Below are positions 12,413-40,404 of a DNA stretch of 64,000 bases, one piece after another (position 1 is the first letter of the stretch; every line of letters begins with the position of its first letter). The translations under genes and the position numbers were made by a program. Below the pieces are notes generated by a model. The model was not told the origin of the DNA. It saw only the letters and a program-made list of their open reading frames with translations, and searched no databases. The DNA is from Cenococcum geophilum 1.58 (Eukaryota; Ascomycota; Dothideomycetes; Gloniales; Gloniaceae): contig KV748194.1 in NCBI GenBank assembly GCA_001692895.1, positions 434,001 through 498,000 on the forward strand, written 5' to 3'.

Positions 12413-12416
12413 TATA

Positions 12417-12911
12417 TTAGGAAATTTTTTTTAGGCTGGTTGTTGCGGTTTGCGGCAAATTGCCGCAAACTGTACGGTTGCGGCAGGTGGATATAGTCGT
12501 TAGCGAATTGTATAAACCGTGCGTTTTGCAATAAGTTTGCAGCACCCTAATAGCAAACCGTGCGTTTTGTAACAAGTTTGCAGCATCTAATAGTAAACCG
12601 CGCGTTTTGTAATAAGTTTGTAGTATCTAATAGCAAATTGCAGTAAAACGCTTAACTACTAAACTAATGCTAGCTTTTTGCTACCCTATAAATAAATAGC
12701 GCGTAAACTGTATAAACTGTACAAACTGTACGAACTGTATAAACTGTACGAACTGTACGAACTGTATAAATTGTACGAACTGTATAAACTATACGAACTG
12801 TATAAATTATAATATACTGCTATAGATTGCCATAGATTGCCATAGATTGCTATAGATTGCTATAATATGCCTTTAAAAATATATTTATATTATAACTACT
12901 ATATAAAATAG
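12417..12911. repeat. Left end of giant element: TIR and three subterminal tandem arrays
   Basis: After the TIR come gcggcaaattgccgc and related G/C-rich motifs. Next are three copies of a roughly 42-bp unit (starting aaaccgtgcgttttgcaat, 12515-12645). Then comes a 10-bp array of gaactgtata/aactgtacga (12695-12810) and a 10-bp array catagattgc (12820-12865). There is no coding signal. Much of the first 250 bp keeps CpA and TpG, unlike the genes beside it. Confidence 0.8.
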
Positions 12912-15320
12912 CTACTCCTCTAAACCTATTATAGACCACGAAGCATTTGCCTTGTCTAGCCCCTTTTCTACCCTCATTCTAAAGATATCTAGATCCTTAT
13001 TATTAAATAGTATAGACTTAACCCCTTTTCTAATAGTATACTAAAGACTTATATTGGGTTTAGCCCCAAGCGTCTTTCTAAATAGCTTAACTACAGCTAT
13101 TAACTGTTTATAATTCTAGTAATATAGTATATTAATGGTACGTTTTTAATTCCGCGATTTTATACCTTTAAAGATAAGCTTATAGGTATTATTTCTAAAA
13201 TTATTACTAGCGCCACCATCCTTGTCTATATCTTCTCCACTATTTACGCTAGCATTGTTGCCTATATCCACTCTATTATATTTATTACCCCCCTTTTTTA
13301 TACTATTCTAATTATCTATATTTCTACCTAGAGCTATATCCGTTCTATTATCCGCATCGCTATCTTTATCTATATTAACTCTACTATATCCGTTACAACA
13401 CTTGTTTATATTAGTCCCGCTATCTATGTCGCTGTTAGGGTTGCTAATATTATTAGGCCTACCGCCTTAGTAATTGGTACTATAGTCGGTTTAATTAGGC
13501 GACATGTTATGGGGTATATTAGGCTAAGTAATAGTACTAGAAGGGCAGGAGGTGTCTAGGTTTAAGGAAAGGGACGCGTTAAGTACCTAGATATAAGTAT
13601 TAGTCCAGAACTGTTATTATAAGTAGTTGTATACTAGTGGAAGTATATTAAAGCGCTGCTTATTAAATCCTGCGTTATAGTCGGAATCTAGGTTAGAAAG
13701 ATTATTAAGACTATGTTTAAATGGATTTGGAATTACTTATGCAGTAGGGTCATTGCTATGTATAGTTACTTAATGTCTTTTTAAGACGCCCTGTTGTAGA
13801 AGCCCTAAAATCCAGTTCTAGCGCTCTGTTAACTAATCCGCCTACATAGCCTTTATCCGTTCCTATATGGCTAATATTAGAGTTAGTTACGGCGTAGCCT
13901 AGGTAGTTAGAATAAGGGTAGAGAAAGAATAAATTACTATTAAGATTGGCACCTGCTTTAAACTTTTGTTGGGTAAAACTACTACTTTTCTATTTATTAA
14001 TAACGTGGCGGATTATTATATAAATTAGTATAACAGCCCCGGGGCTAATTGGGCGTAGAAAGTACTGCGTATCTATACTAAACCTAAATTGCCACTTTCC
14101 TTTAAAGAATGACTTGGAGAGACTAACTATAATAACCGGTGCTATAAAGCGGGATTGCTCGCCCTATAAATAGTTAGGAGAGTGCTAAGGTAGTATAGCT
14201 ATGCGTACTATCTTAGAGTATTAAAAGTTATCCATATAGAGTAGCTTTTCTACTTTAGTAATTATTTCCTACTTAAAGAGCTTTCTAAATAAGTACTTAG
14301 CCTTTACGCAATCTTATATACGTCTTAATAGGTAAAACCGGAACTAGCTAATGCTATTATATATCTATTTTATGTTAGTATATATAAAAGCAATAAGAGG
14401 TAGCTTACTATGCGACATATTAATGGCGACGGTTTTTATATAGCCTCGCTAGAACCGTCGCCTTTGGAAACCCTATTATACTTTACTACTTTATCCTATA
14501 CTAAGTCTATTATCTTTTCTAGAGTCTTTACATTCCCTTCCGGCTATGGCGTAAGAGAAAGACCTTTAGGAGCCTTGCCCGATATTATAAACATTAAAAA
14601 GAAGCGCACAGCAGCTTTTAATATTAGTTTATCCGTAAGTTTTAATTTGGGTTTACTACTACGTTTTATTCCTTGCTATCTTCTAACTATATATATACCG
14701 TATTAAGACTTCTGCGGTTTATTACTGCGTATAGGCGCTATATAAAATAACTTAGCTATAGAGTTATCTTCGGCACTAGAGATAAGCTCTTTAGTAAAGG
14801 GATGGTAGTATTAGAGCCGCTTATTAGGGCGATTTAGGACTTATAACCGCTGTTAAAGCATAAGTAGGTATAAAGGAATAGAGTCTATATAATAGATACT
14901 ATGGTTAAATTCTATATATATAGATCTAGAGATTCTTTATCTAAACTCTACTAGAGTTGTTAATAATACGCTCTTCCCTAGGGTATTAAGCCTCCATCTT
15001 TTTTAGAATCGCTATTTATATCTAACTAACGTTTTAGGATACTATCCCTAGATACTCTATCGCCATATATAGCCGTCTGCTAAAGTTAGCTGCATGCTAC
15101 CGTGTATATACTATTTATAGTACTTTAGCCTAACTGCTGTTCGCGTATACGTTTCTAGATTCTTCTTATACTAGTAGTACTATTTCTTTTACCTTTACCT
15201 TAGTGGTAGGTATATATTAGTATTTTAAGCAGTTATATAGAGGGTAGTTTATACCTTATTCTTTTTAGAAGCTATAGTTATATTCTTTTAGAATAGTGGA
15301 GGTTAGTAAACCTTTAGCAT
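12912..15320 (-). pseudogene. Unknown protein of the giant element, about 800 codons, RIP-mutated
   Basis: A minus-strand frame from ATG at 15320 (MLKVY) to a stop at 12912 has a length divisible by three and reads through many TAG/TAA stops with few or no TGA. The middle (about 14050-14160) reads RFIAPVIIVSLSKSFFKGKW. The stretch at 13200-13650 is rich in Asn, Asp and Gly. The C-terminal part (12912-13150) is basic and ends ASWSIIGLEE. I recognise no family. It is transcribed in the same direction as the transposase and separated from it by 1.2 kb. A second transposition protein or a cargo protein would both fit. Confidence 0.6.
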
Positions 15321-16559
15321 AACTAACGTAGAAGAAGTTAAAGAAGTTAACAAAGATATAAAGATAAAGTATAACACTTTTAAATTATATATTTGCTAGT
15401 GTGGATACAGTTAATAAAATAGAGGAGTAAAGGGGGAGATTTTAATGTTCTGCTGGGGAGCTTAGACCTATTACCAGCCCACTTAAGGCAAATTATGGCA
15501 GATTGCCGCATATCTTGCCGTTAGCTATATAATATTAAGAATTCCTACTAATAAGTAAGCACTAGAGCTAATCTTTACGGGTAAAAGCGTTATAACCGCC
15601 TGTAAAAATGTAAGAATTTAACTAATTTATATGGATATGGCTAACCTTTCTAGCGGTTTAGTAGGTTAACACTACCTAAATAGTAAGTGCTTAACGGTTG
15701 TCCTTATTCTTCTCCCTTATTAAGACGTACTCTAGAGCTCCCCTTTATACCTAGTTAGCCTATAGATACACCCAAGACATAGAGTTAGTTTAATCGCGCT
15801 GTTTCCGCCTTTTTTTACCTAGAATCTCCCTTAAAGCGTATTAGCTTAGGCAATAAGCTAATAAAGTTATTTTATATTTAAAACTTAAGAAAAGCCTTTA
15901 TAGAGGAGCAATATAAGGCTATTCTATATGTTAAGAAGTGGCGGTCGTAAAGATTAGCTATTAATTTAGCCCTAAGTGTTAATAGAGTTAATATACTTAA
16001 TTGCGAACAGTTAGAAGAAGCTTAGACTATAAAGGTAGAGATTATTACAAAAATAAAGCCTATTAAAGAAAAACGTACGGCAAATCGGAAGAGAAAGGTA
16101 AAAGAGGGGGGGTTATTATACTACTCTGCTAATACAAAATCTGCAAAAATACGTATAGCTAGCCAGCCTCTTACTCTAACGAGCCCCTCTACTACTTAAT
16201 TTACCTATATATTGGACACGCTGCCTCTACCTTTAAGCTAACCAACGGCTTTTTTTAACTTCTTTCTATTTTGTCTTATTTTATAGCTAATTTACCTAGA
16301 TTCCTAGGGATTAAATATGCTAGATTCCCCATTACGTTAGCCGTTTTTATTTTCGTTCTAAGGCCTCCTATAATTTAATTAGAAGCTTAGTTTTAGATTT
16401 TTGTTTCTTTATAAACTTATCTATACATATACTATTAATCTAAAGAAAATTATTATTATAGAATTGATTATATATATTCTAATCTATATATAAGTTTATC
16501 TAGAACGTTCTTCTTTTATTTAGTAAAGTTGGTATTAGTTATATAGGTCTCTTAATATA
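15321..16559. other. Spacer and possible 3' part of the transposase gene
   Basis: 15480-15540 contains the recurring ggcaaattatggcagattgccgc-like spacer motif. From about 16000 to 16559 a minus-strand frame with only TAG/TAA stops continues toward the transposase, so its C-terminus may extend into this stretch. No motif was recognised that would fix the end. Confidence 0.4.
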
Positions 16560-19500
16560 GGAAATGTTGTATATTCGGTAGCCATCTAGGTTTTATCTAT
16601 TTTGCGCTATATTTATAGGAAATTGTTTCACTTTAATTATCCTATTAAAAGGATCTACCTTGCCTCTATTATATGGACGGAATAGCTTAAGAAGTGCTCT
16701 ATAGTATACTTGGTATCTGCTATTCTTACCTATATAATTTAAGTCCTATACTGATACCAGCAATTCTAAACGGGCAGCCCGCGTTTCCTTTATTCTATTT
16801 ATTATGTTCTTATATTCTTATATAAGAACTTAGTCCCTTTATAGGGCAGTGGTCCGCATTTAGACTAGATTATAGCGTGCCCATACTTTATATAGTCGAT
16901 TGAGATTACGGGAGTCTTTACCGCGTCAAATGTAGTATATTATAGAGTGATGAATATTAATAGGTAAATCTTGTGCCTAGGCTGCATCCCTTTTAAGGCG
17001 CTTAACGTCTAAATCCGTTGCTTGTATACTATTAACTCGCTTATAATATTCCCGTATAAATAAAGCTAGTTTTATAACAAATTTATTAATACTTAGCCTA
17101 GTCTAAATTTCGCAGGCTTTACGCTATAAATTTAGGTTTATTCCGCATATTGAAAATATTTAATTAGTTAACTAGCAGTAATCCCATCTATATGGCTTAT
17201 CTATTAGGTTAACTATGCCTAATAATAATGTAATGTATAAATCTTCTATAGTATTAGCTGCTAGTATTAGCCTTGTGTTTTCCTATAGCTCTATCTCTTA
17301 TATTACTATAGTGTTTGTTAATTCCGTATTAAGATAAATTATTTACTCTTTATACCCTTTACGCTTATTTAATCTTTAATAGAAATTCTTCTAAGGAATA
17401 TATGCCCTTTCGCCGTACTTTATTATAGTTCCTATTAGGGCGCTAAATATATAAATTATCTCCGGATAGTAGGAAATTGCATAAAGTTTAGGTATGTTAA
17501 AATTAGGTAGGTTTTTGTCGTTAGGTTAGTACGGTAAGAACGCCTCCTTAGTCTTATCTATTTAATATAATATAGCTTTAAGATATTTAATTATATCTTT
17601 ATTATGTGATTTATATTTAGCTAATAATGCAAAGTTAACTGTAGCATAAATAAATAGTATTGCCCCCTTGTGCCTATATAGTAACGGTGCTATAACTGGT
17701 ATAATCTAACGAAGAAGGGACTTATATATCTTTCTAGTCCATTAGCTTAACTCTGTAAAGTTATCCCATCTAATTATACCCTAAAAGGGTTTAACCTTGG
17801 CGAATTATGTAGTTAGAAGATGTTTTACCCTATCCTTAGTAGATAATAGGGTTTTTATACCACTTTGATTAGTTATCAGAACCTTCCCTTTCCCTTTTTT
17901 AATATTAAGTAGTAGTACCTAAAGCCAGCTTATTAAATGCTCTGTAACGCCTTTATATAGCTAGTGTAGTAAATTAGGGGCCATTATAGTGTATATATCC
18001 GCTATATAATAGGACTAGGTAAAATTTTAAATTGGCCTAATATACTTAGGGTCGCTGCGATCTAGCTACAAGTTTTACTATTATTTAAGTTGCTTAATAG
18101 TCGATTTGTGTGTCTGTCGCGGCTATTTGCTAGATATAATGCTTAGTAGGTTACCTCGTTTATAAGGCGGTATATAACACATTATATAGTATTACCCTAA
18201 TTTTACTCCTGTTAATATAACCTACTTTTTATAGTCTGCTATAAACCTAGTAAGTATAGGGTAGTATTACCGGATAAACCCATCCGCGTATTGCATTGGT
18301 ATGCTACGCCTAGCAGCGCGTTTAAGGGCTAGTTTTTATATTAACTTAAGTACCTACACACTGCTAAGGTAAATACTTATGTTTAAATATAATGCTTATT
18401 ACTTGATGGTATATATCTAGCTTATTTATCCGGTTACTTAGTAAGTCTATAGGTATATAACCTAAAAGAAGTATTACTAGCCTGCTAGCTGTATGTTAAG
18501 TCTTTAATAGGATATTAAGTATCGTAATATAAACTAGATGCGCCTTTTTGTTTCCGGATAGTGTAGTTAGCTTAGTTTGGTCGCTACTAGGTATTACCAT
18601 AATAGCTATCGCACCATTAGGTAATTAATCTTGGATCTCCTACTAACGGTTAGCCGTATATGCCTTATTATATACTCTATTACCTTTTATATTAAACTAA
18701 CAAATAGGAGAATAAACTATATTATCTTTAAATGGGAAATAACCGATTAGGAAGGCTATTACGCTAAGTATATTACGGTGGTATATCTTTAGGTTTTTAC
18801 CGTATATATTAAGTTCTATAATTTACTAGCTCTTATCGCTTACACCTTTAAAAATAGAATATAGTTTTATCTTAACTTCTTTTGCATTTCGGTATAATAT
18901 ATATCTGTCCCTTATATTTTTAATACGGGGGTCTTATAGCCACGCGTTTATTTCTTTTACTAACGTACTATTACGTACCTACTAGGCAACTTACGCCTAT
19001 TTTGCAAAGCTTATAAAAGGGTAGAATATATTATTACCTTTGTTTATTCTATCTACTGGCTGGCTAGGCCTTAGCGGGTAGTCGTGATCCGTGGCAGATT
19101 ACTAATTAGAGTTCCCCTCTAGGTGGCTAAGTAGGGTTCCTATATAGCGGCCAGTCACTTTATAATAAGTTTGGGTATAATAAATATTTAAGGTAGAGAG
19201 GCTTATTGCCGCGTGACTATACGTTTTAGTGCTAGTTGGTTATTCTGCTGATGCTGTATTACTTAGCTCCTCTGCTAATATTAAGCCGGTATTTCCTGTA
19301 ATGGTTGGTAAAGTATTATTAATAGCGGTGTTAGTTGCTATAAGGTCGTGTACCTATTATTTTATAGTAAATTTGTCGTCTTTATATGTATCCGCTTAAG
19401 CCTAAATTATAGGATGGATATTATCCTGTTAGTTAAGATAGTCTATGCCCGCAGCTTTATAGTATAGCCTATATCGCGCCAATCTACCTACGGTAGAAAT

Positions 19501-19668: not shown

Positions 19669-19857
19669 CCTAATAACTATAACAACTTACTCCTTTTAAA
19701 TTATAAGTTAAATATACTAAGTAGTATATTATCCTAAGCGCTAATAATATATAAAGCAGTATTGTATCCTATAGTACCTATTATAATTAATTTATAACCG
19801 CTAAATATTTATAAACCTTTAATCCCGCGTCCCTTGCTAATACTATATACACCTAGC

Positions 19858-20868: not shown

Positions 20869-21238
20869 AGCGGCAATCTGCTATAGTAAATTGCCCTTTA
20901 ACTTACGCGCATTATATTCCGTTAGCGAGAGTATTTACCTTAAGCTTATCTACTTTACTTTACTTTTTACCTTTACTACCTTAACTAACTCTTATACGGC
21001 GCCTCTACGCGATATTAATTAATTAATTAATTAGTTTAACCGCCAATTGCTGCTTTAAGCTGCGACTTACTTTTTAAAACTACGGCAATCTGCCTAGCAG
21101 ATTAACTCTTATAATTAGTTTATCTTACTTACCTACTTTAGACTTGCACCTTTACTAATTACTAATTAGATTCTTCTACTTTTATATAGCAACGCTCTAC
21201 TCCTTTTTTATTCCGTCTTAGTATCTTTACATATTATA
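20869..21238. other. Spacer upstream of SNF2 copy 1
   Basis: Contains gcggcaatctgc and cggcaatctgcc motifs (20875, 21085). From about 20950 it is homologous to the region upstream of SNF2 copy 2 (35255-35537), including taactcttatacgg and a ttaattaa run. Both helicase copies were therefore duplicated with their promoters. Confidence 0.6.
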
Positions 21239-21570
21239 ATAAAGGACTTAAATATTATAAAGGGATAGGATATTAATGCTCGTCGCCTTAAGAAAATTAA
21301 GAGATATAATTTTAGATAATATATAAGAGGCCGGGCTTAAAAAACCCATGTTTTATACTGCTAAAGATAAAGTACCATATAATTAGTTTATTTAGAAGAT
21401 TCTTAGCAACTTAACTAAGAAGGAACGTGCTTTAAATAGCTAGTCTAAATAGGCTATTATTCCTTTTATGTTATCCTAGAGGACTAATACTACTAAATGG
21501 TAAAATAATATAAAGTCGGAAGTTAAACCTAATTTAAACCTATAATAACGCTAGTATATATATTTGCTTC

Positions 21571-21757
21571 TGTCACGGCACTGACCTAACATATACTGTT
21601 TTATACTGTCTTATACTGTTCCCTACTGTTAGCTAGCCCACCACTAGCGACTTGGCGGCCGGCCCTACTATTTATATATAATACCCCCTTTCTACCTTTT
21701 TCCCCTCTTTATACCATAACGTAGTTATTTAGTCTACTTTATTGCAGCACTGTAACA
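21571..21757 (+). repeat. Gypsy B 5' LTR
   Basis: 187 bp, tgtcacggcactg ... gcactgtaaca. It includes ccaccactagcgacttggcg, the version of the motif shared by other LTRs of the window. Confidence 0.96.
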
Positions 21758-21922
21758 GTTTATGGTATCTTTAATTTGCGCCCCATCGCGATCACTAATT
21801 CCCTGTACCCTAGCTAATTGACCTCCACCCTAGAGTAATCGCGACCTATACGCACCTTTGCTGAAACCAATATATCCCCAGTATAGTCCTAGAATAATCC
21901 TTAGTTTTTACCTAGCGCCTAG

Positions 21923-24900
21923 ATGGGCGACACTAATAACGCCGAAATGGCCAAAACCTAGAACCCCCATAACGTTTTTGTAGACCTATTTATAGAGATA
22001 TACCCTAATATTGCGTGGACAATCCGCCGCTCCCTACTATACCCTAAGACCTTTAAGCCTAGTAAAGCTTACCTTACCCTTGTTAACTATACTAATAAGT
22101 TCCTTAATAATATTGAAGTAGGACTATAGTGTATGTATAATATAAATACCGCCAATAAGAAAGCCAACGAAAACCTTAGTGCCCTTATTGCTTCCTAGAT
22201 AGGAACTATTAACTTTTAGGCAGAGACTATTACCGTTCTAAAATAATTAACCCCTATAATAACAGTAGTAACCTAGTAGAAAAAACGGAGATCTAAAGAC
22301 CTGCTAATATTTAGCGGAAAAGGCACCCTACTAGAATAATAAGCTAATTTTGAGACCTGGCATATTAAGATTAAGGGAGTCTTTAACCGGGACTGGGACT
22401 ACTTTGATATAGTTTAGTCCTAGATCCTTTATATCTCGGATATGCTAAAGGACAAGGCCTATAAGTTTATTAAGTAGGGCCTAGAGCTTATATATAAGAA
22501 CCCAAATAATATATCTATATGGAAATGGCCTACTAAGGAAGATATGCTTAAAGACCTTACTGCCTACTATAAGGTCCTTAATATAACCTAGGTTGTAAAG
22601 AATAAGCTTAACCATTTCCCCTAAGGTGAGCGTAATTACTGGTCCTAGAAGGGAGAGCTTGATGAGCTAATGGTTTGCGCTAAGAAGATAGATAAATAGA
22701 AGGTGGACCTACTCTAAAAGTTTATCTCTCCGAAGATAGAAGAGCTGGTACTTGGACTGGCCTATAAAATTAATAACAGTAACTATATAGGTTGGAGTAA
22801 GTAGATGGATGTGTTTGCTAAGAACCTTGCGAACTATATATACTAAGCCAACCTTAAGAAGAACGCTAACCACCGCCTACCTACCTAAGCCCCTACCCCT
22901 ATATTAACCCCAACCCTAGTAGTGACTGGAGAACCTATAGACCTTAATGGAATCTTAGATACAGAGCGTAAGCGCCGCGTTAATAATAGACTGTACCTTG
23001 CCTATGGCCTACCTGGCCACTAGAAGGATGCCTATGACCCTACTAAGACAGCAAACCTAGTCTTAATGCTACTTTGTTAAATGACGTAAATAAATAACCG
23101 CGGACGCGGCGCCTATAGAGTCTATTATAGACGCGGCGACCGCGGAGCCTATTATGGCCGCGGCGGACAACCCCCCCCCTTTAACCCTACGGCTTAGTTA
23201 CTCCAAACTATGCCCTATATAGGAGCCTAACCCGTTAACAACGCCTAGTATTGGCGACTTTGCGCTAGCGAATATAAACACGGCCACGTCGTCAATAAGG
23301 TATTGTCTTCCTATACCCTAACTAAAATAGAGATAGACACCGCTAGCTAGACGAACACTAGACCGCCCCACTAAGACAGCCCCGTACCCTAGTTGTTAAA
23401 AGGTAGACCCTTAAACTAAGTTACGCTTAAGGGTCTAAACTATATAAGGAGGAAGACGAGAAGATTAGGTCCCTGTTACTAGATTAATTAGTCCTTTCTA
23501 TTAGTAAACTGCCACTTGATTTTAGATTAGTAAATAGTAATAAGAAATTAATCCTTATTTAAACTTAACTCTCCTTATTGCGTAACCTATACCCCTAAGT
23601 TTATATTAATATAGTAAGCCTAGTGGACTCCGGTAGTACTATAATGGCATTTGCTAACGTAAAGTCTATTATAAGAAAGTATAACGTTATAACTAAGAAG
23701 CTGCTGGCACTTAGGCTACTGCGCCTTATAGATAGTATCCTAACTTTACTTGTTATAGACTACTTTACCGCCCAAATGTTAATCGGCCTCTATACTAAAG
23801 CCATACTCTTTTTTATTACTAAACTTTTACCTACTACCCCAATTATCCTAGGTATGCCCTAGCTTTAGAAGTATAAGCCCTGTCCTAGCTTTAGGAAACT
23901 TAAGATCCGCTTTGACTTAGACTACTACTCTAGGTACTGCCTCCTATAGGGGATAGCCAACGTTAGTAGGGACGCCTTATATAGATACTTAGCACTACTA
24001 AGCCTAGTGCCTAGGACTATATATAAAGCCCTAATAGTAGAAGACATTCCTAATAAAGGAGAGCCTGTATAGCTATAAAGAAATGAGATAGTAAAAGACT
24101 GGACTAACCTAGCACTTAAGACCAAAATGATGGGCTAGCTAGCCCTGCCGAGACTAAGGAAGAAGGTCCGCTTTGTGCCGCTACTACTAAGAAACCAACC
24201 CTAACCTAGGCACTATTTAAACCCTAGCCGCCTAGCCCAATACCTAGAACTAAGCTATATGCTATATACGCACACTATAGCTCGCGTTATAGCAAGGACT
24301 GGCTATAGAACTACTAAGACCCGGATAATAGAAACCGTGCTACTATAACGCCTAACCTTATACCTATCTCCCGCGCGTACTATGTAGGGCCGCCGCCTTG
24401 TTTCCGCCCCCTTAGGCCGACTAAGCCATGCTAGCCTAGCCGTAGCACTAGAGAGCTAGATACGCCCCAACCTGGACGATATTAAATGCACCTATATTAT
24501 TAATTTTACTTAGTTCTGTAAATAAAAAGACGTAAAGGTAATAAGGATCTATATAGCGGAGCTAGTAGAACTAGTTAAATAAGATAAGTACTAATAGCTG
24601 CTTAAAGAGCTGCCTATAGGCCTAATAGAAGTACCGAACCTATTAGAAAGGTCTTTCCGTTGGCTAGTGGAAGGCAACTATATAATAAAGGAAGCCTATA
24701 AAGCGCTCCCCCCCTATTTCTACGACTTCCTTAAGATAAATCTAAAAACTAAACCCAAGCTTTTATGTTGGAAGATAGTTGATACTAATGTTGAAAAATT
24801 CCTAAAAGGTAAACTAGGATTGACCCGCGAAGATATTCTATAATGCCTACTAAAGGAGTTTAGTAAATATATTAAGCACTTCCTCCTTAAGAATGTAGAT

Positions 24901-27900: not shown

Positions 27901-27969
27901 TTCTATAAGCAATACCTTAAGAAGCTAGGACCCCCAGACTGGGTATAAGATAAGGAAAAGTCACGCTGA
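21923..27969 (+). pseudogene. Gypsy B gag-pol remnant with C-terminal chromodomain
   Basis: Gag starts at ATG 21923 (MGDTNNAEMA). A nucleocapsid-like region lies at about 23230-23290, protease near 23625 (LVDSGSTIMAFA). RT covers about 24990-25650, with the active site YLND instead of YLDD at 25414-25425. RNase H (TVVEIDALNWASSGVL) starts near 25850. Integrase covers 26560-27300: zinc finger, then VIVDRLTKM, and SNYGxQF where the second catalytic Asp has become Asn. The chromodomain lies at about 27760-27900 (KWEFKKILNVHDEDP), and the frame ends with TGA at 27969. Gln codons are replaced by TAG/TAA throughout. Chromodomains direct such integrases to methylated-histone chromatin, which fits insertion into repeats. 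Confidence 0.92.
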
Positions 27970-28298
27970 GGTCGCGGCCGACCACCGCATTAAAATTTGT
28001 GGTAGTTGAGATATTATAGAACTTTGACCGGCGGTTAAAGTTGTTTAATTGGCCAAATTCTCGCTAAGAAACGCCATATGGACCAATTTGGGTGGCGGTA
28101 TGGAGTTCTGCTGACCTTACTTACTAAACTAACTAATTAGGATTTTCCATGCCCGGTATAGAAAATCGCCATTAGCTTGGTTAAGGGCGGTGAGCGGAAC
28201 TAATATCTTTGTGGTAGAAAATAGGCAACCCCGTACACTGCCTATTTTTAAGTTATTTATTCGGTTTGGGGACTAAACCGTCTGGGGGAGAGGAGTAC
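27970..28298. other. Gypsy B 3' region and polypurine tract
   Basis: There is no gene. 28018-28185 resembles the copia 3' region at 9230-9370. The polypurine tract gggggagaggag (28284-28295) directly precedes the 3' LTR. This stretch retains many CpA/TpG sites. Confidence 0.7.
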
Positions 28299-28485
28299 TA
28301 TCACGGCACTAACCTAACGCATACTGTTTTATACTGTCTCGTACTGTTCCCTACTGTTAGCTGGCCTACCACTAGCGACTTAGCGGCTAGCCCTACTATT
28401 TGTATACAATACCCCCTTTCTACCTTCTTCCCCTCTTTATACCACAACGTAGTTATTTAGTCTACTTCATTGTAGCACTGTGACA
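28299..28485 (+). repeat. Gypsy B 3' LTR
   Basis: 187 bp, tatcacggcact ... gcactgtgaca, identical in length to the 5' LTR and followed by gcttc. Confidence 0.96.
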
Positions 28486-28981
28486 GCTTCTAAGCCAATC
28501 TCCAAATTATACGGTTTTATATTACTAAATAAGCCATTCTTACTTAAAAATATAACCTTTTAGTTTTAAAGAATAAACCTAATTACCTAAAGCACTATAG
28601 AGCTTTATATAGTTTATAAATTTTAGAAGGTAATATAGAAACTCTAATAGTTAAAGAAATTAGTTTCTTGCTATTTTAAGAGATCTTAATATTAGTAGGT
28701 TTTATCTTAGATAAGAATGAAATTACCTAGCTTAATATGGTCACTAATAAGGAGGTTTATATTACCTGGCAAGGGCTATTATAAGCCTTATTTTAGTAGT
28801 ATATGCTATATAACAGGAGTAGAGTGAAATTTCTACTTAAGAGTACGGATTATAAGTACCTTTAATAATATCTAGCTATCTATATGCTAATAATTGCAGC
28901 TAAGCATTTAATTGTAAAAGTACCGTACTAATTACTAAATAAGTGGGGCATAAACCCTCCTAGAATTGCTGATACTCTAAC

Positions 28982-29117
28982 CTATCCCTTAACCCGTTAA
29001 AATTCGTCCAACGGTTATCAGCCAATTAAAGTATCTAGATTAGCGAAAGACACCCAATGAAATCTTGTCGCGAACTTAAGCGACCTTAGTGTAGGACTCT
29101 AACGGGTTAAGGGATAG
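28982..29117. mobile_element. 136-bp MITE in SNF2 copy 1
   Basis: The inverted ends are ctatcccttaacccgtta and taacgggttaagggatag (18 bp, perfect). The homologous place in SNF2 copy 2 (near 36363) lacks it, so it inserted after the duplication. The interior keeps CpA and TpG (ccaacggttatcagccaatt), so it arrived after most RIP. The flanks are compatible with a TA target but do not prove it. Confidence 0.85.
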
Positions 29118-31795
29118 TATTCGCGCGCTAAGGCCGCACTTAAAAAACGGCAGAAGATTACGCCTAAGCCGATCCGCAAGCACTTAGATATTAAGTTTAT
29201 TAATAAAGATAGCGAGAATAAAAGCGATGCTTTATCTATTTTATTAACACGTAGCGGTATTCTAAGTTTATTAAGTCTAAAGAAATATAATTATAAAAGG
29301 GAGTAACCTACTAGAGGCATCTATGGGCAAACTACAGCAAACTACGGCAAGCTGCTAGGAATAGCCGCAATAATCTAGTTATCTAGCCTATGGACAATCC
29401 CGACAATATAGAGCACGGTAAGGATAATCGCGATACTCCCTAGAGTAAAACTGCTTTATATCCCTAATCAGCTTAGACTTTATATAATAATTTAATACTA
29501 TACCCACAAAAGCTTTTCTTAGTAAAATTATAGAAACTAATATAATCTAAGATACCTTAGGTGAAAATGCGCTTAAGGATAATATAACCTAAGCTAAGGA
29601 GACATAGGCTATAATGCCTATTGCGTAAAGGTATGAGTATATAGTTATATAGAGTACATCTTAAATTAGACTAATATTAGCTCTTTTTAGATTTTAAGAG
29701 GCCGCCATAGCTAAAGTAGGAGGTAAGGTTTAATAAATGGAGCAGTAGATGTATAAACGTTCGGCTAAGCTATATAGAGTTCCTAAAAAGGCCGTCTTAG
29801 TAAAAAACCCGGTCCCCGTTTCTAGTAAATAGGGTCTAAATCTAAAGTTTAAATTATTCCTATACTAGCTATATAGCGCATCTAAGATGTTCTACTAAGA
29901 GCGTATATAACTAAACGGTAGGGTTTTTGCTGATAGTGTAGGAACCGAAAAAATCGTAACTACATACTTAACTATTGTCCTTAGTTACCACTATGCTATA
30001 AACCTAAATAAAGTGGCTGCTAATTAAGCGGCTGGGAATACGAATTAGTATCTATAGAAGGATAACTAGGCTAAAGACGCCGAGTGTCCTAGCCAGGATA
30101 AGATGCCTTTTCTATACTTATATGTAAATTAAAACGCTATATCTATAATGCGAAGATAGCATGGTGCAAATCTAGTTATTGTAATTCTAAGTATAATTAC
30201 TAGCTAGAGAGACAATTATATCTTATTGTTTAAGGACTCTACGCTTATAATAAAAGAGTAGACGCTACTATGGTTTGTAATATACTACGAGACAAAAGGT
30301 GTATCTAAAGGAATGGCGCGACTAAACCCTTAGGAATGGCTTTAAATGGGGACTTTAGGGGACTAGTTAGATTACGATGCGATAAATAATAGTCGGACTC
30401 TTATAGGTAAAAAGAAAACGCCCTACTTATAGTTCTTTAATAGCCCTCTATAGAAGTATATAGACTATTATAACTACGCTCTTTGTTAGAATCTTATAGG
30501 ATGAGTTTTATAATAAAAAAAATTAAAAAACTTATATTAACTAATTCCTTTATTTTTAAAAAAAAATGTAGTACCGCTATACCTAAGATTCTTTACCTAG
30601 GCTATTTCCAGTATAGTAATAGAGAATAGTGTTATGGATATGTGCTGGTTTATTATAAGCGCCCTTAAAGATATAGATTGGGCAACCACTTAAGCTAACC
30701 TAGTATTTTTAGAAAATATATATCCGCGGAAGTTAATAAAATAGCTAAACTATAGACCCAATTTTTAAAGCAGGGAAGGAGTAACCCTAAAAGTGCCTTG
30801 CAGTCTACAATATATAAAGAATTAGTTAAGGTCAGCGGCCTAATTCTTATAAATTTTCTTATTCGCCGTAACCGGGATACTATTAACTTTAATAACCGAA
30901 AACTGAAAGCTGTCCTAGGCTAGCTCTAAATTTAATACGTAAAGTGTAATTATAAAACTAAAGAACTTAAATTCCTATATAGTATAGAAGGTGCAATAGT
31001 ATTAGAAATAGAAGAGGTATTTTAGCAGAAAATAGTTAAATAGAGAGAAGATAGTTCTCCTACTGGGAAAAAACTAGTATAAATGGCTAGCAGCTCCTTA
31101 AGCAGCTACTTTATATGCTGTGATATAGTAATAACGCCCGGGTTACTTTTATAGAAGGATAGATTTAATAAGGATCTTCCGGATAATAGAAGGGATAAAC
31201 ATCTAGTCTAATACTATACTAACGTAGTTAAAAATCCTATTAAAAGTATCTTAGATTAGAATAAGGAGGAAATTCTTTACAATAACGCGAAGTTTAAGAC
31301 GCTTTTAGCTATCTATAAAGAAATTACAGCAGCATTATATATTAAAGGCTATTATAGTAAATTTTTTATTAGTACTAATTTTTTATTTATTAGGGCGGTA
31401 TATATACTAGTAAGTAGTAAAATACTCTATCTTTTTACCTCTTAATAGCAGCACGCTTAACTAGAACTCTAAGCTAATACTTATTTTAGGCCTTGGTTGC
31501 TAAATATAGTAAGGATACCGTTATATGCCTCCCTAGAGGAACACTACTAAAGTAAAAAGACTATATAATCTATAACTTATGGAAGCAGCTAAACAGACTG
31601 TAAATTCTCTTATTATTTCTAAAGGCTATTACAGAGGGTGTTACTATTAACGGCTTCCCGTATTAAAAGTGGAATTCTAGATAAGCTTAAGTTTAAGAAG
31701 AATATAGATATAAATAAGCCCGGAAATTTAAAGAAGCAGCTAATATAAATGTTATAGATTATAGTAGCGATATATTTTTAATCCTTTTAGCGCGG

Positions 31796-32830
31796 AATTG
31801 GGTAATATACTAGGTAGTTTACCGTAAATTCTTCTCTAGTAGAAGAAGTATAACAGACTATTATTTTTAGAATTAGGTAATATAGTGGGCAGTATTCCGC
31901 AGTCTTACGGTTAGTAAAAGGCAAATACTAAATTGTTTTTATTATAGAATTAAGCAATATACTTAGCGATGTGTAGCAGTCTTACGGCTAATAGAAGGCA
32001 TATACTAAGTTATTTTTTATAAAACTAGGCAATATATCGGTAATATACTATAATTCTTTTATTAATAAGAGAAGGTATTATTTTGCTATTTAAGGAACCG
32101 GGTAATACGCGGGTGATATATCGCAGTGCTCTATTAATAAAAGAAGCTACTAGTTTACAATATGGGAACTAGGCAATATGCGAGCCAATATTTGGAATAC
32201 TCTGCTCGTAAGAGGAGCCTACTAGCTTGCGATATAGGAACTAGATAACGCACAATTAGGTATATCGTAGTGCTCTGTTAATAAGTAGCGCCTACTAGTT
32301 TGTTATTTAAGGACCTAAGTAATACGCTAGGCTATATATCGTGGTGCTCTATTAATATAGTAAGTCTACTAGCTTGTGGCGTAGGAGCTAGGTAATATAT
32401 AAGCTAATATATCAGAATACTTTGCTAATAGGCGACACCTGCTAGCTTGTAATTTAAAGAATTGGGCAATATACTTAGCAATATGCGGTAACTTCGTGCT
32501 TAGTAATGGAAGTTTACTAGCTTGCTGCTTAAGGAACTGGGCGGTATGCTAGATAATATACGGTAATTTCGCGCTTAGTAATAGAAGTTTACTGGCTTGC
32601 CGCTTAAGGAACTAGGCGGTGTGCTAGGTAATATACGGCAATTTCGCGCTTAGTGATAGAAGTCTGTTAGCTTGCCGCTTAAGGAACTGGGCAATATACC
32701 AGGTAATATGCGACAATTTCTTGCTTAGTGATGGAAGTCTACTGGCTTGCCGCTTAAGAAACTGGGCGTATACTAGGCAATATACGGCAATTTTGCGCTT
32801 AGTGATTGAAGTCTACTGGTTTGCTCTTTA
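31796..32830. repeat. Satellite 1, units of about 70-76 bp, behind SNF2 copy 1
   Basis: About 14 diverged units. Each begins ggaactaggcaatatgc and contains a cggcaatttcgcgcttagt core and a ctactagcttgccgcttaa end. The last five units are the most alike. Unit lengths vary, so no reading frame is kept. Confidence 0.9.
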
Positions 32831-33899
32831 AGGTAGTGATTTTATTAAATTGGAGCTCCTAGCTAGAGTTATAATTAATATAGACTTTAGATCTAATCAT
32901 TTAATTAGTAAAGCGGAGTAAATGTAAAGTTAATATAGCTCTTAGAGCTCTAGGTCTATACCTAATTTAAAATACAGTTAAGAAAGAATAGATTACTAGT
33001 AACTCCGTACTTAATATAAGGCTAATTAGTAACTCCTAGAGCTCTACTACTAACTTAGTGTCTATTAAGGGGCGTATTAGCTATAAAATCTAGAATACCC
33101 GCTTATTCTGCTACTATTCTCTTTATACTAGTATATAGCTTATTTTAGATATATGCCCCGATTACAATACTATAGTCGCGTTTGCATGCCTTATATAATG
33201 TTATTATCTTAACCTTTTTAATCGCGATGAGCTTGTTTCTGGGGGGTTTATATAGGAGGTAGGTAAAGATATAGGAAACGCCGATTATAGAGAGGATGTT
33301 GGTTAAGGAGGAGGCTCTATTGCTATACTAAAGTAGGGAGTCGCAATAGAGGCCTGGTGGTAGAGAGGGGCTCTTTTAAATTGTTTACTAACGTTAATTA
33401 CGTATTAATATGCGAAGTTAAATCTGGAGCCTTATTCTGGAGCTTTACTAAATAATTAACTTAATTACAGATTTAAATAAGCTATAGTAGTAGCCGCCAT
33501 TAATTATAAAATGGGTAATACTAAAAGGCGTATAGATTAAATAGTTATAATATAGAGGTGATTTGTAACCGAATAGTGAGGAGCTTTAAGCTCTATATCC
33601 CTTTATCTAGTAAAAAAGACTTTTTATATTGGGCGCTTTAGGTACTTCTGCCTGGGTTAGCATACTATAGGCACCCTAGCTAGCGTAATTTTATTAGTAA
33701 GCCTTACTAAAACGCGTTAACTTATAATGCCGATAAAATGCTATAGAAGGCCACCACCTATATATATATTTAAGGAAGTTAGGCAAAATGTCGTAATATA
33801 TAATATTATAACTGTAGGTTTTTACCCTTCCTTTATTAACTAGCTGCCGATTATATAGGATAATCCTCTATTAAAGTCTTCCCCTAAATTACTACTACC
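32831..33899. other. Stretch with weak coding signal in the giant element
   Basis: The first 450 bp show no coding signal. From about 33300 a plus-strand frame runs with almost no TGA (GLVVERGSFKLFTNVNYVLI, then NIEVICNRIVRSFKLYIPL near 33560). This may be an upstream exon or a separate small gene ahead of 33900-35118. No family was recognised. The hairpin-like gaggagctttaagctc lies at 33578. Confidence 0.35.
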
Positions 33900-35118
33900 T
33901 ATCCACTTTATACGCATTCTTAATGTTAATAAGGATAAGCTTCCCTCTTAGATCTTACTATTAAACACTATCTATCTATCTATTACCTACTCTTTATATT
34001 AGAACTAATTTCCCCTTAACTTAACTATATACTAGCCCTTAACCTATTTTTAAAGTAAATGTTGTAATAGTATATATGTTAATAAGGAGTTATAGATATT
34101 TTACGCTGATTGGTTATTATAGATGAATGAAAACCCTAGGTATGCAACTACCCTAGTTAAGCGCACTAAGCGTCCCTATATTAAAAAGGCGTTACTAAAG
34201 AACAGAGATAGGATTACTAAGCTAGCTCTAAAGCCGCGAAAGAAGAAAGCGGCGGATAGTTATTAAAAGGAGATTGGAGGGTTTCTAATTAAGTAGGAGA
34301 AGAATAGTAAGGTAGCTAAAGCTATAAAGACAGCTTAGCTACCTGTTAAGAAGCCTCTACTAACCTATTCTATCCTACTGGCCGCTGGAAATGCCGCTAT
34401 ACGTAGTCTAGAGAAAACCGAGTTAAATAAAAACAGCGCCGTGGAGATAGCTGTTATAGAAACTAGAAAACCATAAAGAGGGACCTCTTTAATGTTATAA
34501 GTTAGACGATTAGTTATATAAAGGAGGGATAGGATGCTTTACAGACTACGTTACCCGCTAATTACTAGAATAGAGAGTTTAAAGACGGAAATTAAGGAAC
34601 TTTAAAAAGCTAAGAAGGCTTAAAATATATCTATTATTAATCTAATCTAGGACGCCTAAGTAATAAAGTAGGATTATCTCTAAGGTTATAAAACTATATT
34701 CGTAACTAACTGAAGCGCATAATGTAAATTAAAGAAAGGTAATGTTTTAAGAGCTTTTGGTAAAGAACCAGCTTAAGGTTATAAGGGAGAACGTACTATA
34801 TACGCTAAATGAGGTATATTAAGTGCTATAAGTGGTTAAACAGTTTAACTAGCGGCTGTTTAATATAGAGGATTAATTAAGGGCGGTATAGGAGGGCTTA
34901 AAGGAGGCTATAGTAAAGGCTTAATTAGCTTTACCTAGTCTCCTATTAAAAAAAATAATTAAAAATAATACGTAAATTCTATACTTAGCTAAGTTATTAC
35001 CTTTTTATATTAGTAGTCGAGGTAGGATTTATAAGGTTTAATAAACTAATAAGTTAGTTTAGTTCTTAAATTCTAAAAATTATAACTATATAAGACTTAT
35101 ACTACCTAAGGCAATCTA
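33900..35118 (+). pseudogene. Unknown Lys-rich, probably coiled-coil protein of the giant element
   Basis: The plus frame includes ADWLLxMNENPRYATTLVKR (34100-34160) and a very basic stretch (KRPYIKKALLKNRDR, KPRKKKAADSY; 34165-34260). A one-base frame change near 34710 leads into a region with heptad-like Leu/Ile/Val spacing (QELLVKNQLKVIRENVLYTL, 34740-34800), up to about 35118. In-frame stops are TAG/TAA. No family was recognised. A basic N-terminus plus coiled coil suggests a DNA-bound oligomer. It lies between the two helicase copies and has no second copy in the window. Confidence 0.5.
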
Positions 35119-35537
35119 CCGCAAAATGCCGCTAGACTTGGCATTCTGCGTATTTACTAGAACTTCTTAATTTACCTTACCATTAATAAGCATTAGATAA
35201 TAGTAATTTGCCTACTAGCGTTACTGCGGGAGTACTTAACTTTAATATCTACTTCGCCTAACTCTTTACCTCTACTACCTTAACTAACTCTTATACGGCA
35301 CCTTTACGCGATATTAATTAGTTAATTAATTAGTTTAACCGCTAATTGCTGCTTTAAGCCGTAACTTATACCCTAGAACTGCGGTAATCTGCCTAGTTAA
35401 TTAATTCTTATAATTGGTTTATTTTACCCACCTACTTTGGACTTATACCTTTACTAAATACTAACTAGATTCTTCCGCTTTTATATAGCAACGCTCTACT
35501 TCTCCTTTATCCTATTTTAGTATCTTTACGCATTACT

Positions 35538-38500
35538 ATAAAGGACTTAGATATTATAAATAGATAGGAAATTGATGCTTATCGCCTTAAGGAAATTAAG
35601 AAGACAATATTAGATAATATGGTAGAGGCCAGGCTTAATAAAGTTGCGTTTTGTACTGCTAAAGATAAAGTACTACGCGACAACTTTATCTAGAAAGTCC
35701 TTAGTAACTTACCTAAGAGGGAAGGTGTTTTAGAGAGCTAGTCTAAAGATACCATTGTTGCTTTAATAATATCTTAGAGAACTAATGCTATAAAACGGCA
35801 AAACAAGTTAGAACCTAGAAGTTAGACTTAACCTAAATTCGAACCTATAATAACGCTAGCGCCTATATTTACTCCTAAGTAAATCTCGGAATTACTAGGC
35901 CCTATATTATTAGGCAAGCCGCTTTTGCTTAAAAATATAACCTTTTAATTTTAAAGAATAAACTTAACCACCTAAAACACTATAGAGCTTTGCACAATCT
36001 ATGACATTATAAAAGCCAACACAGAAACTCTAATAATTAAAGAAATTAGTTTTTCGCTATTTTAAGAGGTTGTAGTATTAGTAGGGTTTAACTTGGATAA
36101 GGATTAAATTATATAGGTCGATATTAAATCCTATAAGGAGGCTTACATTGCCTAGCAAGGGGTATTATAAGCCGTATTCTAGCGATGCATGCTATACTAT
36201 AGAAGTAAAGTGGAATTTATACTTAAGAGTACTAATTATAAGTTCTTTTAATAATATCTAGCTATCTATATACTAACAATTGCAGCTAAGTATTTAATTA
36301 TAGAAATACCGTACTAAATACCGCGCAAGTAGAGTATAAACCCTCCTAGTATCGCCAATACCCTAATTCGCCAGTCTTTGCGCGGTAAGCCTATATATAA
36401 GAAACGGCGGAAGACTGCGTTTAAGCAGACCCATAAGCACTTAGAGTACTTAGATAATAAGTTCATTAATAAAGATATTAAAAGTAAGAGCGATGCTTTA
36501 TTAACCTTATTAGCGTATAGCAGCATTCTAAGTTTATTAGGTTGGAAGAAACATAGTTATAAAAGGGAGTAACCTACTAGAGTATCTAAAGGCAAATTGC
36601 GGCAAGCTGCCGAGGACGGCCGCGGCGGTCTAGCTATTTAGCCTATAGGGGGTCCTGATAGTATAGAGGAGAATAAAGATAATTATAATACTCTCTAAAG
36701 CGTAACTGCTCCGGATCCTAAACTAGCTTAACTATAGGTTATAACCGTAGATAATCTAGCTGGTAATACTATATAGGTTTCTGCAGAAGACAACAACCCA
36801 GAAGAAAAGGCCCTTAAAGATATAATAAATAAAGCCAATAGGGAGGCAGAGGCTGCTAATTATATTAAGTAAAGGTATAGGTATATAAGTATATAGAGTA
36901 CATCTTAAATTAGACTAACGTTAGCTTTTTTTAGATTTTAAAAAGCTGCTATGGTAAAAGTAGGCGGTAAGGTTAAGAGAATAGAGTAGTAAATATATAA
37001 ACGCTTAGCTAAGCTATAGGGGGTTTTTAAAGGGGCCCTCCTAGGGAATAATATAGTCCCTATTCCCCGTAGATAGGGTTTAAATCCAGAGTTTAGAGCG
37101 TTCCTATACTAGCTATATAGTATATCTAAGATATTCTACTAGGAACGCATAGAGCTAAATAATAGGGTTTTTATAAACGGTATAGGGACCGGCAAAATAG
37201 TAACCGTATACTTAACTATTATCCTTAACTACTACTATGCTATAAACTTAGATAAAGTAGCTACTAATTAAGCGGCTGGAAATGCTATTTAATATCTACT
37301 AAAGGGCCACTAGGCTAATAGCGTTAAGTATCCTAGCTAGGATAGAGTGCCTCTACTATACTTATGCGTAAATTATAACGCTATATCTACGATGCGTAAA
37401 TAGTATAGTGCTAGCCTAGTTATTGCAGTTCTATATATTATTACTGCCTAAAGAGATAATTATATCTTATTATTTAAAGACTTATTACTTATAACGCAAG
37501 TGTAGGCACCACTAAGAGTTACAATATGCTATTTAACGGCGGATGTTTCTCTAGGTATAGAGTAGCTGACTTTAGATAAGTGGCTAAAAATAGGAACGTT
37601 GGGAAACTAGACCGCCTATAATGCTTTAAATACTTATTAGGCTCTTATAGATAAAGTAAAAACCCCTTACCTATGGTTCTCCGATAGTATCCTACCACTT
37701 AGAAAGGGTAATCCTTTAGTTAGTACCCCGGCTGCCTTAGTAATAAGATTTATTATAATTATAATATCTAAATGCCTAAAATAGCGTATTATTAACAACT
37801 TTATAATTACTAGAAGAGTCTACTGCTTCTTATCTAACGGTAAGTAAGAGGATAAAGGTTAGCAGTTGGTTAAGACTATGTTTTTTAGTAGGGTTTTATA
37901 GAATGAGTTTTATAATAAGAAGAATAAAGAGACTATAGTTAACCAATTTCTTTATTTCTATAAAAGTACTGTACTAAAACGCCTTAGATTCTTTATCTGG
38001 GCTATATTAGGGACTCTAATAAAGAATAGTGTTGTAGATATATATTGGTTTATTATAAGTGGCCTTTTAGATCTAAATTGGGCAAGCGCCTAAGATAATA
38101 GCATTCTTAAAAAATGCACGTCCGTTAAAGTTAAAAAAATGGCGAAGCTATAGAGTTATTTTTTAAAATAAGGAAAGAGTAACCCTAAAGGGGTCTTATA
38201 GTCTACGGTATATAAAGAATTAGTTTAGGTTAGCGGAGAAATACTTATAAACTTTAAAATTCGCCGTACCTTAAATACCATCGGCTTTAATAGAAGAAAA
38301 TTAAAAGTTATTTTAGGCGAGCTCTAAATTTACTACCTAAACTATAAGTATAGAACTATAGAAATTGAATTACTATAGGGTATAGAAAGTGCAATAGCGT
38401 TAGAAATAGAAGAGGCATTTTAGTAGAAAATGGTTAAATAGAAAGAAGATAGTTCTTCTAAGGGGAACCAACTAGTATAAATGGCCGGTACCTCCTTAAG

Positions 38501-39304
38501 CACCTACTTTACGTGCTGTGTTGTAGTAATAACGCCCGGGTTACTTTTATGGAAGGATAGATATAATAAGGATCTACTAGACAACGACAAAATTAATATA
38601 TAAGCAAAATTTTATATAAAATTAATTAAATCTCCTATTAGAAGCATCTTAGATAAAAATAAGGAGGAAATTTTTCGCAGTAATGTAAAGTTTAAGGCGC
38701 TTTTAGCTATCTGTGAAGAAGTTATATAATTAAAAAATGTCGGGGGGTATTATAGCAAGGTTGTTATTGGCACTAATTTCCTAACTATTGGGGCGGTATA
38801 TATAGCAGTAAGTAATAAAATACTCTATCTTTTTACCTCTTAATAGCAGCTTGCTTAACCGGAACTTTAAGTTAATACTTATTTTAGGCCTTAGTTGCTA
38901 AATATGGCGAGAACGCTGTTATATATCTCCCTAGAGGAATATTACTAAAGCAAAAGAACTATATTATCTATAACTTATAGAAGTAGCTAAGCGGACTATA
39001 GATTCTTTTATTATCTCTAAAGGCTATTATAGAGGGTATTACCCTTAATAAGGTATACTTTATTATACTTATAGAGCTTAATCCGTCCTTTAGCAAATAG
39101 GAACAGTTTATATACCGCATCTACTAAATTGGCTAAGAAAACCCTCTTATAATAGTATATATTTTGTATAATACGGCTTCCCATATTAAGGTTAGAATTC
39201 TAAATAAGTATAAGTTTAAAAAGACCGCTATAGATAAGATATTAGATGTAAATACGAATAAGCTAGGGAGTTTAAAGGAGCAGCTAGTAGAAGTGTTTTA
39301 GTAA
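35538..39304 (+). pseudogene. SNF2-family helicase gene, copy 2 (full length, RIP-mutated)
   Basis: The start is inferred as ATG changed to ATA at 35538 (x-KDLDIINR). About 380 codons of unknown N-terminal region precede the helicase. Motif I is intact except for its last Thr: GIGTGKIVT, with GTGK at 37185-37196. A motif III-like AILGTLIKNSVVDIY lies near 38003-38050, equivalent to the xGTPxxNxxxDxxxF pattern of SNF2 proteins. The C-terminal lobe has LNPSFSKxEQF and motif VI RIYxIGxEN (39116-39142; family pattern RxHRIGQ), then ILYNTASHIKVRILNKYKF. One frame change occurs near 38940 (frameshift or intron). A DEAH box was not found with confidence. The protein would be about 1,250 residues. 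SNF2 proteins are ATP-driven DNA translocases; inside a transposon a role in opening chromatin at donor or target is conceivable but unproven. Confidence 0.8.
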
Positions 39305-39335
39305 GGTGTTTTTAATATTTTAGCGCAGAATTAAG

Positions 39336-40205
39336 TAATATACTAGGTAATTTGCCGCAAAGTCTTATCTAGTAAAAGAAGTATACTAGGCTGTTATTTT
39401 AAGAATTAGGTAATATAGTGGGCAATATGCCACAGTCTTATGGCTAATGGAAGGTATATACTAGGGGTTTTTTTTAATAGAGTAAGTAATATTTCTTAGT
39501 AATATACCGCATTCTTACGGTTAATAGAAGGTATATTAGGTTGTTTTTTGTGGAATAGGGCGATATATCGGCAATATACCGCAATTCTTGTATTAATAAG
39601 AGAAGTTTACTATCTTGCTATTTAAGGAACTAGGCAATAAGCGACCGGATATATCGTAGTGCTCTAGTAATAAGCGACAACTGCTAGCTTATTATTTAAG
39701 GACCCAAGTAATGCGCTAGGCAATGTGTTATGGTGCTCTATTAATATAATAAGTCTGCTAGCTTGCGATATAGGAACTAGGTAATATACGAGCTAATATA
39801 TTGGAATACTCTACTAATGGGCGACGCCTACTAGCTTGCAATTTAAAGAATTAGGCAATGTGCCTAGTAATATGCGGCAACTTTATGCTTAGTAGTGGAA
39901 GTTTACTGGCTTACCGCTTAAAGAACTAGGTAATGTGCTAGGTAATATATAGTAGTTTCGCGCTTAGTAATAGAAGTCTACTAGCTTACAGCTTAAGGAA
40001 CTAGGCGATGTGCCAGGCGATATACGGTAGTTTTGTGCCCAATAACTAAAGTATATTAACTTGCCGCTTAAGGAACTAGGCAATATGCTAGGCAATATAC
40101 GGCAATTTTATGCTTAATAATAGAAGTCTACTAACTTGCCGCTTAAAGAACTAGGAGTATGCCTATTAATATGCGGCAATTTTATATTTAATAAGAGAGG
40201 TCTAC
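39336..40205. repeat. Satellite 2, units of about 70-76 bp, behind SNF2 copy 2
   Basis: About 12 units of the same family as 31796-32830 (ggaactaggcaat ... cggcaatttt ... cttgccgcttaa). The duplication that produced two helicase genes therefore included the satellite, or each copy gained it independently. Confidence 0.9.
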
Positions 40206-40240
40206 CAGCCTACCCCTACGGTTACACTTCCTATGCATTA

Positions 40241-40400
40241 GAAAAAAAATTTTAGCCACGTTGTTGCGGCCGAAAATTAGGGTTGTGTGTTTGTAGCAAA
40301 TTGCTGCAAATTGCCCGCAAATTGCTAAAATTGCGACTTACGCAGGTTTTGCAGACCCCGATTTTCGCTTGCAACAACGTGCCTAAAAAAAATTTCCTAA
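40241..40400. repeat. Inverted-repeat block at the right end of the giant element
   Basis: A 160-bp block begins ttagaaaaaaaattttagcc and ends with the complement of ttaggaaattttttttaggc. Both ends continue into acgttgttgc (about 35 bp of imperfect inverted repeat). The centre holds caaattgctgcaaattgccc. It could be a MITE of the same family inserted at, or forming, the right end. Left neighbour tgca, right neighbour tgta. CpA and TpG are retained. Confidence 0.75.
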
Positions 40401-40404
40401 TGTA

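Follow-up and report, generated by a model that had tools for sequence, protein, structure and literature searches.

The closest described relatives of the element reported here are the PlavakaB transposons. In the published account, these have 5'-CATCA..TGATG-3' termini and a target-site duplication (TSD) of 2-3 bp, and some families encode a TET/JBP protein (Kojima 2025, PMC12730594). TET/JBP is also the accessory gene named for Plavaka elements in the literature that we found. SNF2 helicases have been reported in other DNA transposons, Inton and Enton, in which they are potentially involved in transposition (Kapitonov et al., cited in PMC3627910), so a DNA transposon with an SNF2 gene is not new as such. 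The description of Inton and Enton on which our comparison is based mentions neither a tandem pair nor Plavaka. A search of the open-licence PMC literature returned no report joining Plavaka (or Kyakuja) with SNF2. Here we analyze a 64,000-nucleotide stretch of the Cenococcum geophilum 1.58 genome (contig KV748194.1, positions 434,001 to 498,000; hereafter the window) and a 28-kb block within it. This block very probably holds a cut-and-paste transposon of the PlavakaB type, about 21 kb long and killed by repeat-induced point mutation (RIP), which carries a transposase gene, a DUF6532 gene and two tandem SNF2 genes whose products would serve as accessory factors.

The window element resembles PlavakaB in its transposase, CATCA-type termini, 2-bp TSD and carriage of accessory genes. 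The published families come from Agaricomycotina and carry TET/JBP, whereas the element described here carries an SNF2 pair and DUF6532 in about 21 kb (PMC12730594). Both the PlavakaB termini and a TSD within the 2-3 bp range are found in the window, and the element fits the PlavakaB type on these two features. No Tet_JBP match was found in the window block or the left half of copy C42 (six frames each) or in the SNF2 units of C42 (plus-strand frames), where RIP may hide one. Since the same scan of the window also missed SNF2, this does not prove that TET/JBP is absent.

The original prediction, made for this stretch from its letters alone, had proposed a perfect 20-bp inverted repeat enclosing the block. 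A pattern scan of the window found this 20-mer terminal inverted repeat (TIR) exactly at 12417-12436 (+) and 40381-40400 (-), with 2 matches at up to 3 mismatches against 0.08 expected, and the true inverted match is longer, extending to 37 nt at 92% identity (12410-12446 and 40371-40407). When copies from elsewhere in the genome (given handles such as C13 and C42) were lined up at their ends, the termini proved to be of the CATYAGG type and fell at window positions 12415 and 40402. Most copies terminate in CAT[CT]AGGAAATTTT, with CATCAGG in C42 and C80 and CATTAGG in C24. RIP turns CA into TA, and the window ends, TATTAGG and CCTAATG, are RIP variants of the same terminus; the related elements C2 and C44 have CCTGATG at their ends. 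The TA duplication is clean at four of seven elements, namely the window copy, C13, C42 and the related C5. The 20-mer has 16 exact genomic copies. Because 548 genomic sites match it with up to 3 mismatches, against 43 for a reversed-pattern control, the TIR taken by itself identifies a large group of elements. Among other observations on these ends, a 7.5-kb element (L023; C5:5184251-5194250, about 498-8039) combines the same ends and a TA duplication in a gypsy copy with a different interior, and stretches at C2, C27, C44 and C88 have mainly end sequences in common with the window block.

The block is one DNA transposon inserted in a gypsy element, as had been proposed. Three gypsy copies (C76, C118 and C36, fetched among 40 matches listed) are continuous across the site: the left flank aligns to base 152 and the right flank from base 151, giving an empty site with a 2-bp TA duplication in all three. 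Because these empty sites join both flanks with a 2-bp TA overlap, the interruption is a single insertion. The proposed position between protease and reverse transcriptase (RT) holds on the right, where gypsy RT and RNase H are found (RVT_1, E 1.8e-23) with the RT starting about 0.7 kb away; on the left, a search of the three plus-strand frames gave no Pfam match at E≤0.1.

Copies elsewhere have the same organization. From one end to the other, C13 and C42 follow the order of the window element at 89-92% identity, and C80 aligns with C13 over 21,095 columns at 90.6%. Insertions interrupt the alignment of C24. C26 is short of its first 66 bases and broken at one point, and the stretch fetched for C69 holds an interrupted, incomplete copy. 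When a 4.5-kb piece of the transposase region served as probe, at least 36 genomic matches came up, the probe's own locus included, the others at 88-92%; the two matches on each of contigs C48 and C53 belong to one broken locus each. In 34 of the 36, an SNF2 match of the P0001 type (named after a metagenome protein introduced below) follows downstream, at most 45 kb away and with the same orientation, in many cases near +13.5 kb. DUF6532 lies upstream in 17 of the 36, at -2.4 to -2.5 kb in 15 of these 17. The count took all 36 transposase matches, all 78 P0001 matches and 19 of 76 DUF6532 matches, those on or near contigs of this family (family A). The full-length copies C13 and C42, the single-insertion empty site and the SNF2 linkage together bear out the prediction that the genes moved as one unit, and in C13 and C42 the ends enclose the whole gene set, not the transposase alone.

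The predicted size of 28 kb did not survive. Because a 6.9-kb long terminal repeat (LTR) retrotransposon is nested inside the 28-kb block, the transposon itself is about 21 kb. The insert is flanked by a 5-bp TSD (GCTTC at 21566-21570 and 28486-28490) and is absent in C13 and C42, with C13 uninterrupted at the site and retaining a single GCTTC. The two LTRs differ by 18 transitions and 0 transversions over 187 sites. Subtraction of the insert gives 27,988 - (6,915 + 5) = 21,068 bp, and the bases matched against the window amount to 21,027 in C13 and 21,083 in C42. The original prediction had overlooked this retrotransposon, together with the wide spread of the TIR and the RIP damage.

The copies examined are RIP-mutated and broken. 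Over window positions 1-60,000, TpA/ApT is 1.44-1.99 and (CpA+TpG)/(ApC+GpT) is 0.25-0.70; the last 4 kb give 0.98-1.10 and 1.05-1.16, respectively. Transitions make up 93-99% of the differences between C13 and six other copies, with transversions at 0.3-0.9% per site. No stop-free frame of at least 120 aa is present between 12.4 and 40.4 kb, and the element genes are dead copies because of this lack of long frames and the heavy RIP. The idea of an alternative genetic code, raised by the stop-rich frames, was discarded: if any one stop codon is taken as sense, no more than 4 long frames open, and TpG/CpA is depleted throughout, with the dinucleotide ratios giving RIP.

The gene order is DUF6532 (-), Plavaka transposase (-), SNF2-1 (+) and SNF2-2 (+), and the coordinates are collected in the table. 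The Plavaka transposase domain PF18759 is recognized in two window frames (E 1.9e-23, 83.7 bits; E 2.3e-21, 76.8 bits; cut-off 26.3) and in C42 (E 1.3e-25 and 2.5e-22), which confirms the transposase type originally proposed.

Features of the transposon and its surroundings (window positions)
Feature	Position	Strand	Basis or remark
Left LTR of interrupted gypsy element	10293..10508	+	
Target-site duplication TA, left	12413..12414		End alignment, empty sites
Left terminal inverted repeat, CATYAGGAAATTTTTTTTAGGC type, first bases RIP-changed	12415..12436	+	Scan, end alignment
DUF6532 (PF20149) gene fragment	13948..14373	-	Pfam; 6 TAG + 2 TAA inside
Plavaka transposase, profile 194-325	17922..18329	-	Pfam; 6 TAG + 5 TAA inside
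Plavaka transposase, profile 42-192	18385..18798	-	Pfam; 3 TAG + 2 TAA inside
Copy 1 of ~5-kb duplicated unit	20920..32833	+	Split by nested LTR retrotransposon
Nested LTR retrotransposon, 6.9 kb	21571..28485	+	LTRs ~190 bp; RT/RNase H at ~25.1-26.15 kb
SNF2-1, paralogue in copy 1	29749..31442	+	Matches P0001 1-234, 324-371, 370-616 at 52-54%
75-bp tandem repeats, 3' end of unit copy 1	32454..32824		
0.8-kb segment between SNF2 copies	33969..34758		Common to family B, inverted there
Copy 2 of duplicated unit	35219..40217	+	
SNF2-2	36993..38840	+	Matches P0001 1-616 at 65%; 21 TAG + 10 TAA inside
SNF2-2 C-terminal (Helicase_C) exon	38909..39298	+	Placed by offset from C42, no separate window alignment
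75-bp tandem repeats, 3' end of unit copy 2	39843..40155		
Palindromic right end	40236..40402		Inner TIR-like arm 40236-40283 pairs with 40355-40402
Right terminal inverted repeat	40381..40402	-	Scan, end alignment
Target-site duplication TA, right	40403..40404		End alignment, empty sites
Right LTR of interrupted gypsy element	44255..44470	+	

We identify the window genes as SNF2 on the basis of the less mutated copy C42 and of P0001, an intact homologue with a PF00176 domain. Among seven copies compared, C42 has suffered least from RIP (GC 0.386). A protein search with its SNF2 frame returned P0001, an uninterrupted JGI metagenome protein of 616 aa, as the sole match at E≤0.01 among 4794 candidates (79% identity, E 1e-225); an earlier search with the C-terminal piece matched none of 352 candidates. 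P0001 scores 36.9 bits against PF00176 (cut-off 24.9) and ends before Helicase_C; of the metagenome contigs encoding it, the longest measures 8,983 bp. It contains ADGMGTGKT, WDEFH and SGTPMEN, which we take to be motifs I, II and III. Judged by its sequence, P0001 is a diverged, orphan-like SNF2 lineage. In SNF2-1, the motif III position reads SST/SSI in C42 and the window copy, to which RIP could contribute, and match offsets indicate that about 51 codons between motifs Ia and II are missing. SNF2-1 is a diverged paralogue in which full ATPase coupling may have been lost. The idea that SNF2-1 is a pseudogene with a shared frameshift was dropped, as the starts of its two parts are in frame in C13 (954 bases apart) and C26 (951), with a distance of 953 in the window copy and C42.

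The two SNF2 genes lie in a tandemly duplicated unit of about 5 kb, whose copies (20920-21571 plus 28487-32833, and 35219-40217) are 71-79% identical. The same cross-matches recur in C13, C42 and C24, so the duplication predates the family's spread. Transversions between the unit copies in C13 amount to 1-14% per 250-bp block, against 0.3-0.9% between insertions. By codon position, transversions between SNF2-1 and SNF2-2 number 44/36/52 in the window copy, 52/43/59 in C42 and 46/41/55 in C13, three loci that are not independent. The predicted duplicated SNF2 helicase is upheld in that two SNF2-family genes are present, as recognized via copies elsewhere; it is not upheld by significant matches in the window's own frames, and the duplication predates this copy.

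Several results weigh against reading the block as a PlavakaB-type transposon with SNF2 accessory factors. Six-frame translations of the block gave no significant SNF2 match (Pfam, E≤0.01), and a strict SNF2 motif scan of the window gave nothing convincing. Even C42 stays below cut-off for SNF2-rel_dom (E 0.068) and Helicase_C (E 1.8e-4; 22.2 bits, cut-off 23.5), and the PF00176 cut-off is passed only by P0001 and, weakly, by some copies of a second family (family B, described below). The C42 piece matched nothing in a PDB sequence search, and the best matches of P0001, to the SNF2 ATPases Rad5 and ISW1 around motif I and motifs II-III, were not significant (E 0.53-0.73). Constraint on both SNF2 copies is not demonstrated, because the third-position excess is only weak. 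Of the 78 P0001 matches, 13 (on C81, C37, C4, C7 and C88) have no family-A transposase match. The TA duplication is not clean at C24 and is possibly AA at C80, and C26 lacks its left end. Family-B ends were searched for and not found. Finally, we infer the role of the SNF2 proteins from family membership alone.

With these points taken into account, the transposon with SNF2 accessory factors would operate as follows. The Plavaka transposase would cut and join the ends and so excise and insert the unit. SNF2-2, perhaps together with SNF2-1, would use ATP to remodel chromatin on the element; alternatively, the SNF2 proteins might strip host proteins from it. Either action could aid transposition or counter silencing, a role parallel to the one that TET/JBP genes are proposed to play in other Plavaka elements. 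Insertion of the LTR retrotransposon lengthened the window copy to 28 kb, and host RIP then broke the copies examined. A model for the anti-silencing alternative is VANC, which is not known to be an SNF2 ATPase. VANC proteins are anti-silencing proteins of VANDAL, a plant element, and the likeness extends only to the principle of an element-encoded protein that counters host silencing (PMC10398659).

A second Plavaka family has a comparable arrangement. At the C46 locus (L035-L037) we found a Plavaka transposase, a PF00176 match below cut-off (E 0.0026) and a 4.7-kb internal duplication at 66% identity. Only a 0.8-kb segment (84.5%) and a transposase stretch (57%) align between C46 and family-A C13 DNA, and the C46 SNF2 protein is 20.6% identical to P0001 (E 4.6e-13). 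PF00176 scores in family B are 24.7 bits at C4:5283598 (26.3 with neighbours) and 22.7 at C46, the latter below cut-off. The copy-1 SNF2 gene lies 5.4-12.1 kb upstream of copy 2 in 16 of 16 places, counted from 16 copy-2 and 16 copy-1 matches among 85 SNF2 matches, one per locus, with the fragment C56:315-464 and second pieces left out. A listed Plavaka lies on the opposite strand within 25 kb in nine of the 16 (six at 11.3-11.5 kb; by chance, about 3%), and DUF6532 lies within 15 kb in four; these counts used 110 of 123 Plavaka matches, second-exon matches being left out, and 4 of 76 DUF6532 matches. That a multi-copy Plavaka has an SNF2 pair, and that a second family repeats the pattern, suggests recruitment of chromatin remodellers, besides DNA demethylases, by fungal DNA transposons. 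The finding also provides a defined gene pair for testing a role in transposition or silencing escape in a fungus with strong RIP.

The 0.8-kb segment lies between the two SNF2 copies in the window, at C46 and at six listed family-B places. It has at least 40 matches, with 40 of 57 candidates scored: six lie between family-B SNF2 copies, all six in opposite orientation, and the other 34, not checked one by one, are on contigs with family-A loci or fragments. Over 825 sites of this segment, C42 and C46 are separated by 110 transitions and 20 transversions, far less than in the transposase stretch or the SNF2 proteins. The simplest idea would be an exchange of the segment between families A and B.

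In a tree of 9 sequences, A1 and A2 are separated from B1 and B2 at 100% bootstrap, which implies either two duplications or one with homogenisation. A single duplication ancestral to both families, with the copies homogenised within each, would account for the same order and orientation, the similar spacing and the common 0.8-kb segment, yet SNF2 identity is 17-24% between families against 50-61% (A1-A2) and 41% (B1-B2) within them, and we regard this origin as a tentative possibility, somewhat on the improbable side. It is rather unlikely that the SNF2 genes simply ride along as host cargo after a single capture and play no part in transposition or silencing. Capture of host sequence is common in large DNA transposons, constraint between the SNF2 copies looks weak, and the protein is orphan-like, P0001 finding only itself at E≤0.001 among 7999 candidates scored; however, SNF2 matches are kept in 34 of 36 family-A rows, and passive capture does not predict that family B would also have two copies of a related SNF2 gene, placed as in family A relative to the transposase. 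A further proposal, that an ATPase and its diverged partner form a dedicated chromatin-opening or anti-silencing module, duplicated independently in the two Plavaka families as a counterpart of TET/JBP, seems to us unlikely.

That the block is instead a nest of independent elements, with a small Plavaka and separate SNF2 elements side by side and a right TIR supplied by a 167-bp miniature inverted-repeat transposable element (MITE), is highly improbable: the right TIR is indeed one arm of a MITE-like palindrome (40236-40402), a retrotransposon is indeed nested in the block, and C2, C44 and C88 have little beyond the right ~118 bp in common with it, but order and both termini are retained in C13, C42 and, insertions aside, C24, the inner palindrome arm is also present in all three, the gypsy empty site indicates one insertion, and 34 of 36 rows are linked. 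We reject a MITE origin as the principal account of the right TIR, given the collinearity of C13 and C42 and the retention of the inner arm in copies.

A number of minor observations were made alongside. Further RIPed SNF2-related matches occur on C75, C71, C36, C100, C128 and others, many of them frames of ~202 aa and some near contig ends; for the 18 such matches checked, the closest listed Plavaka lies 25.9 kb away, outside the 25-kb limit, and they were set aside. In a third type of Plavaka, with a single exon, many loci have a divergently oriented DUF6532 match at a distance of some 15-16 kb, noted by inspection and uncounted (examples are C111:184664-201095 and C28:2005162-2021630). Within the window, an Rfam search gave no match. 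The un-RIPed last 4 kb have open frames at 61372-61902 (-, 177 aa) and 62739-63134 (-, 132 aa), with no Pfam match in the frames searched. A fragment of a DDE_1 (PF03184) transposase lies at 60012-60818 (+; E 1.2e-18), and positions 7391-8722 are a minisatellite-like block of tandem repeats.

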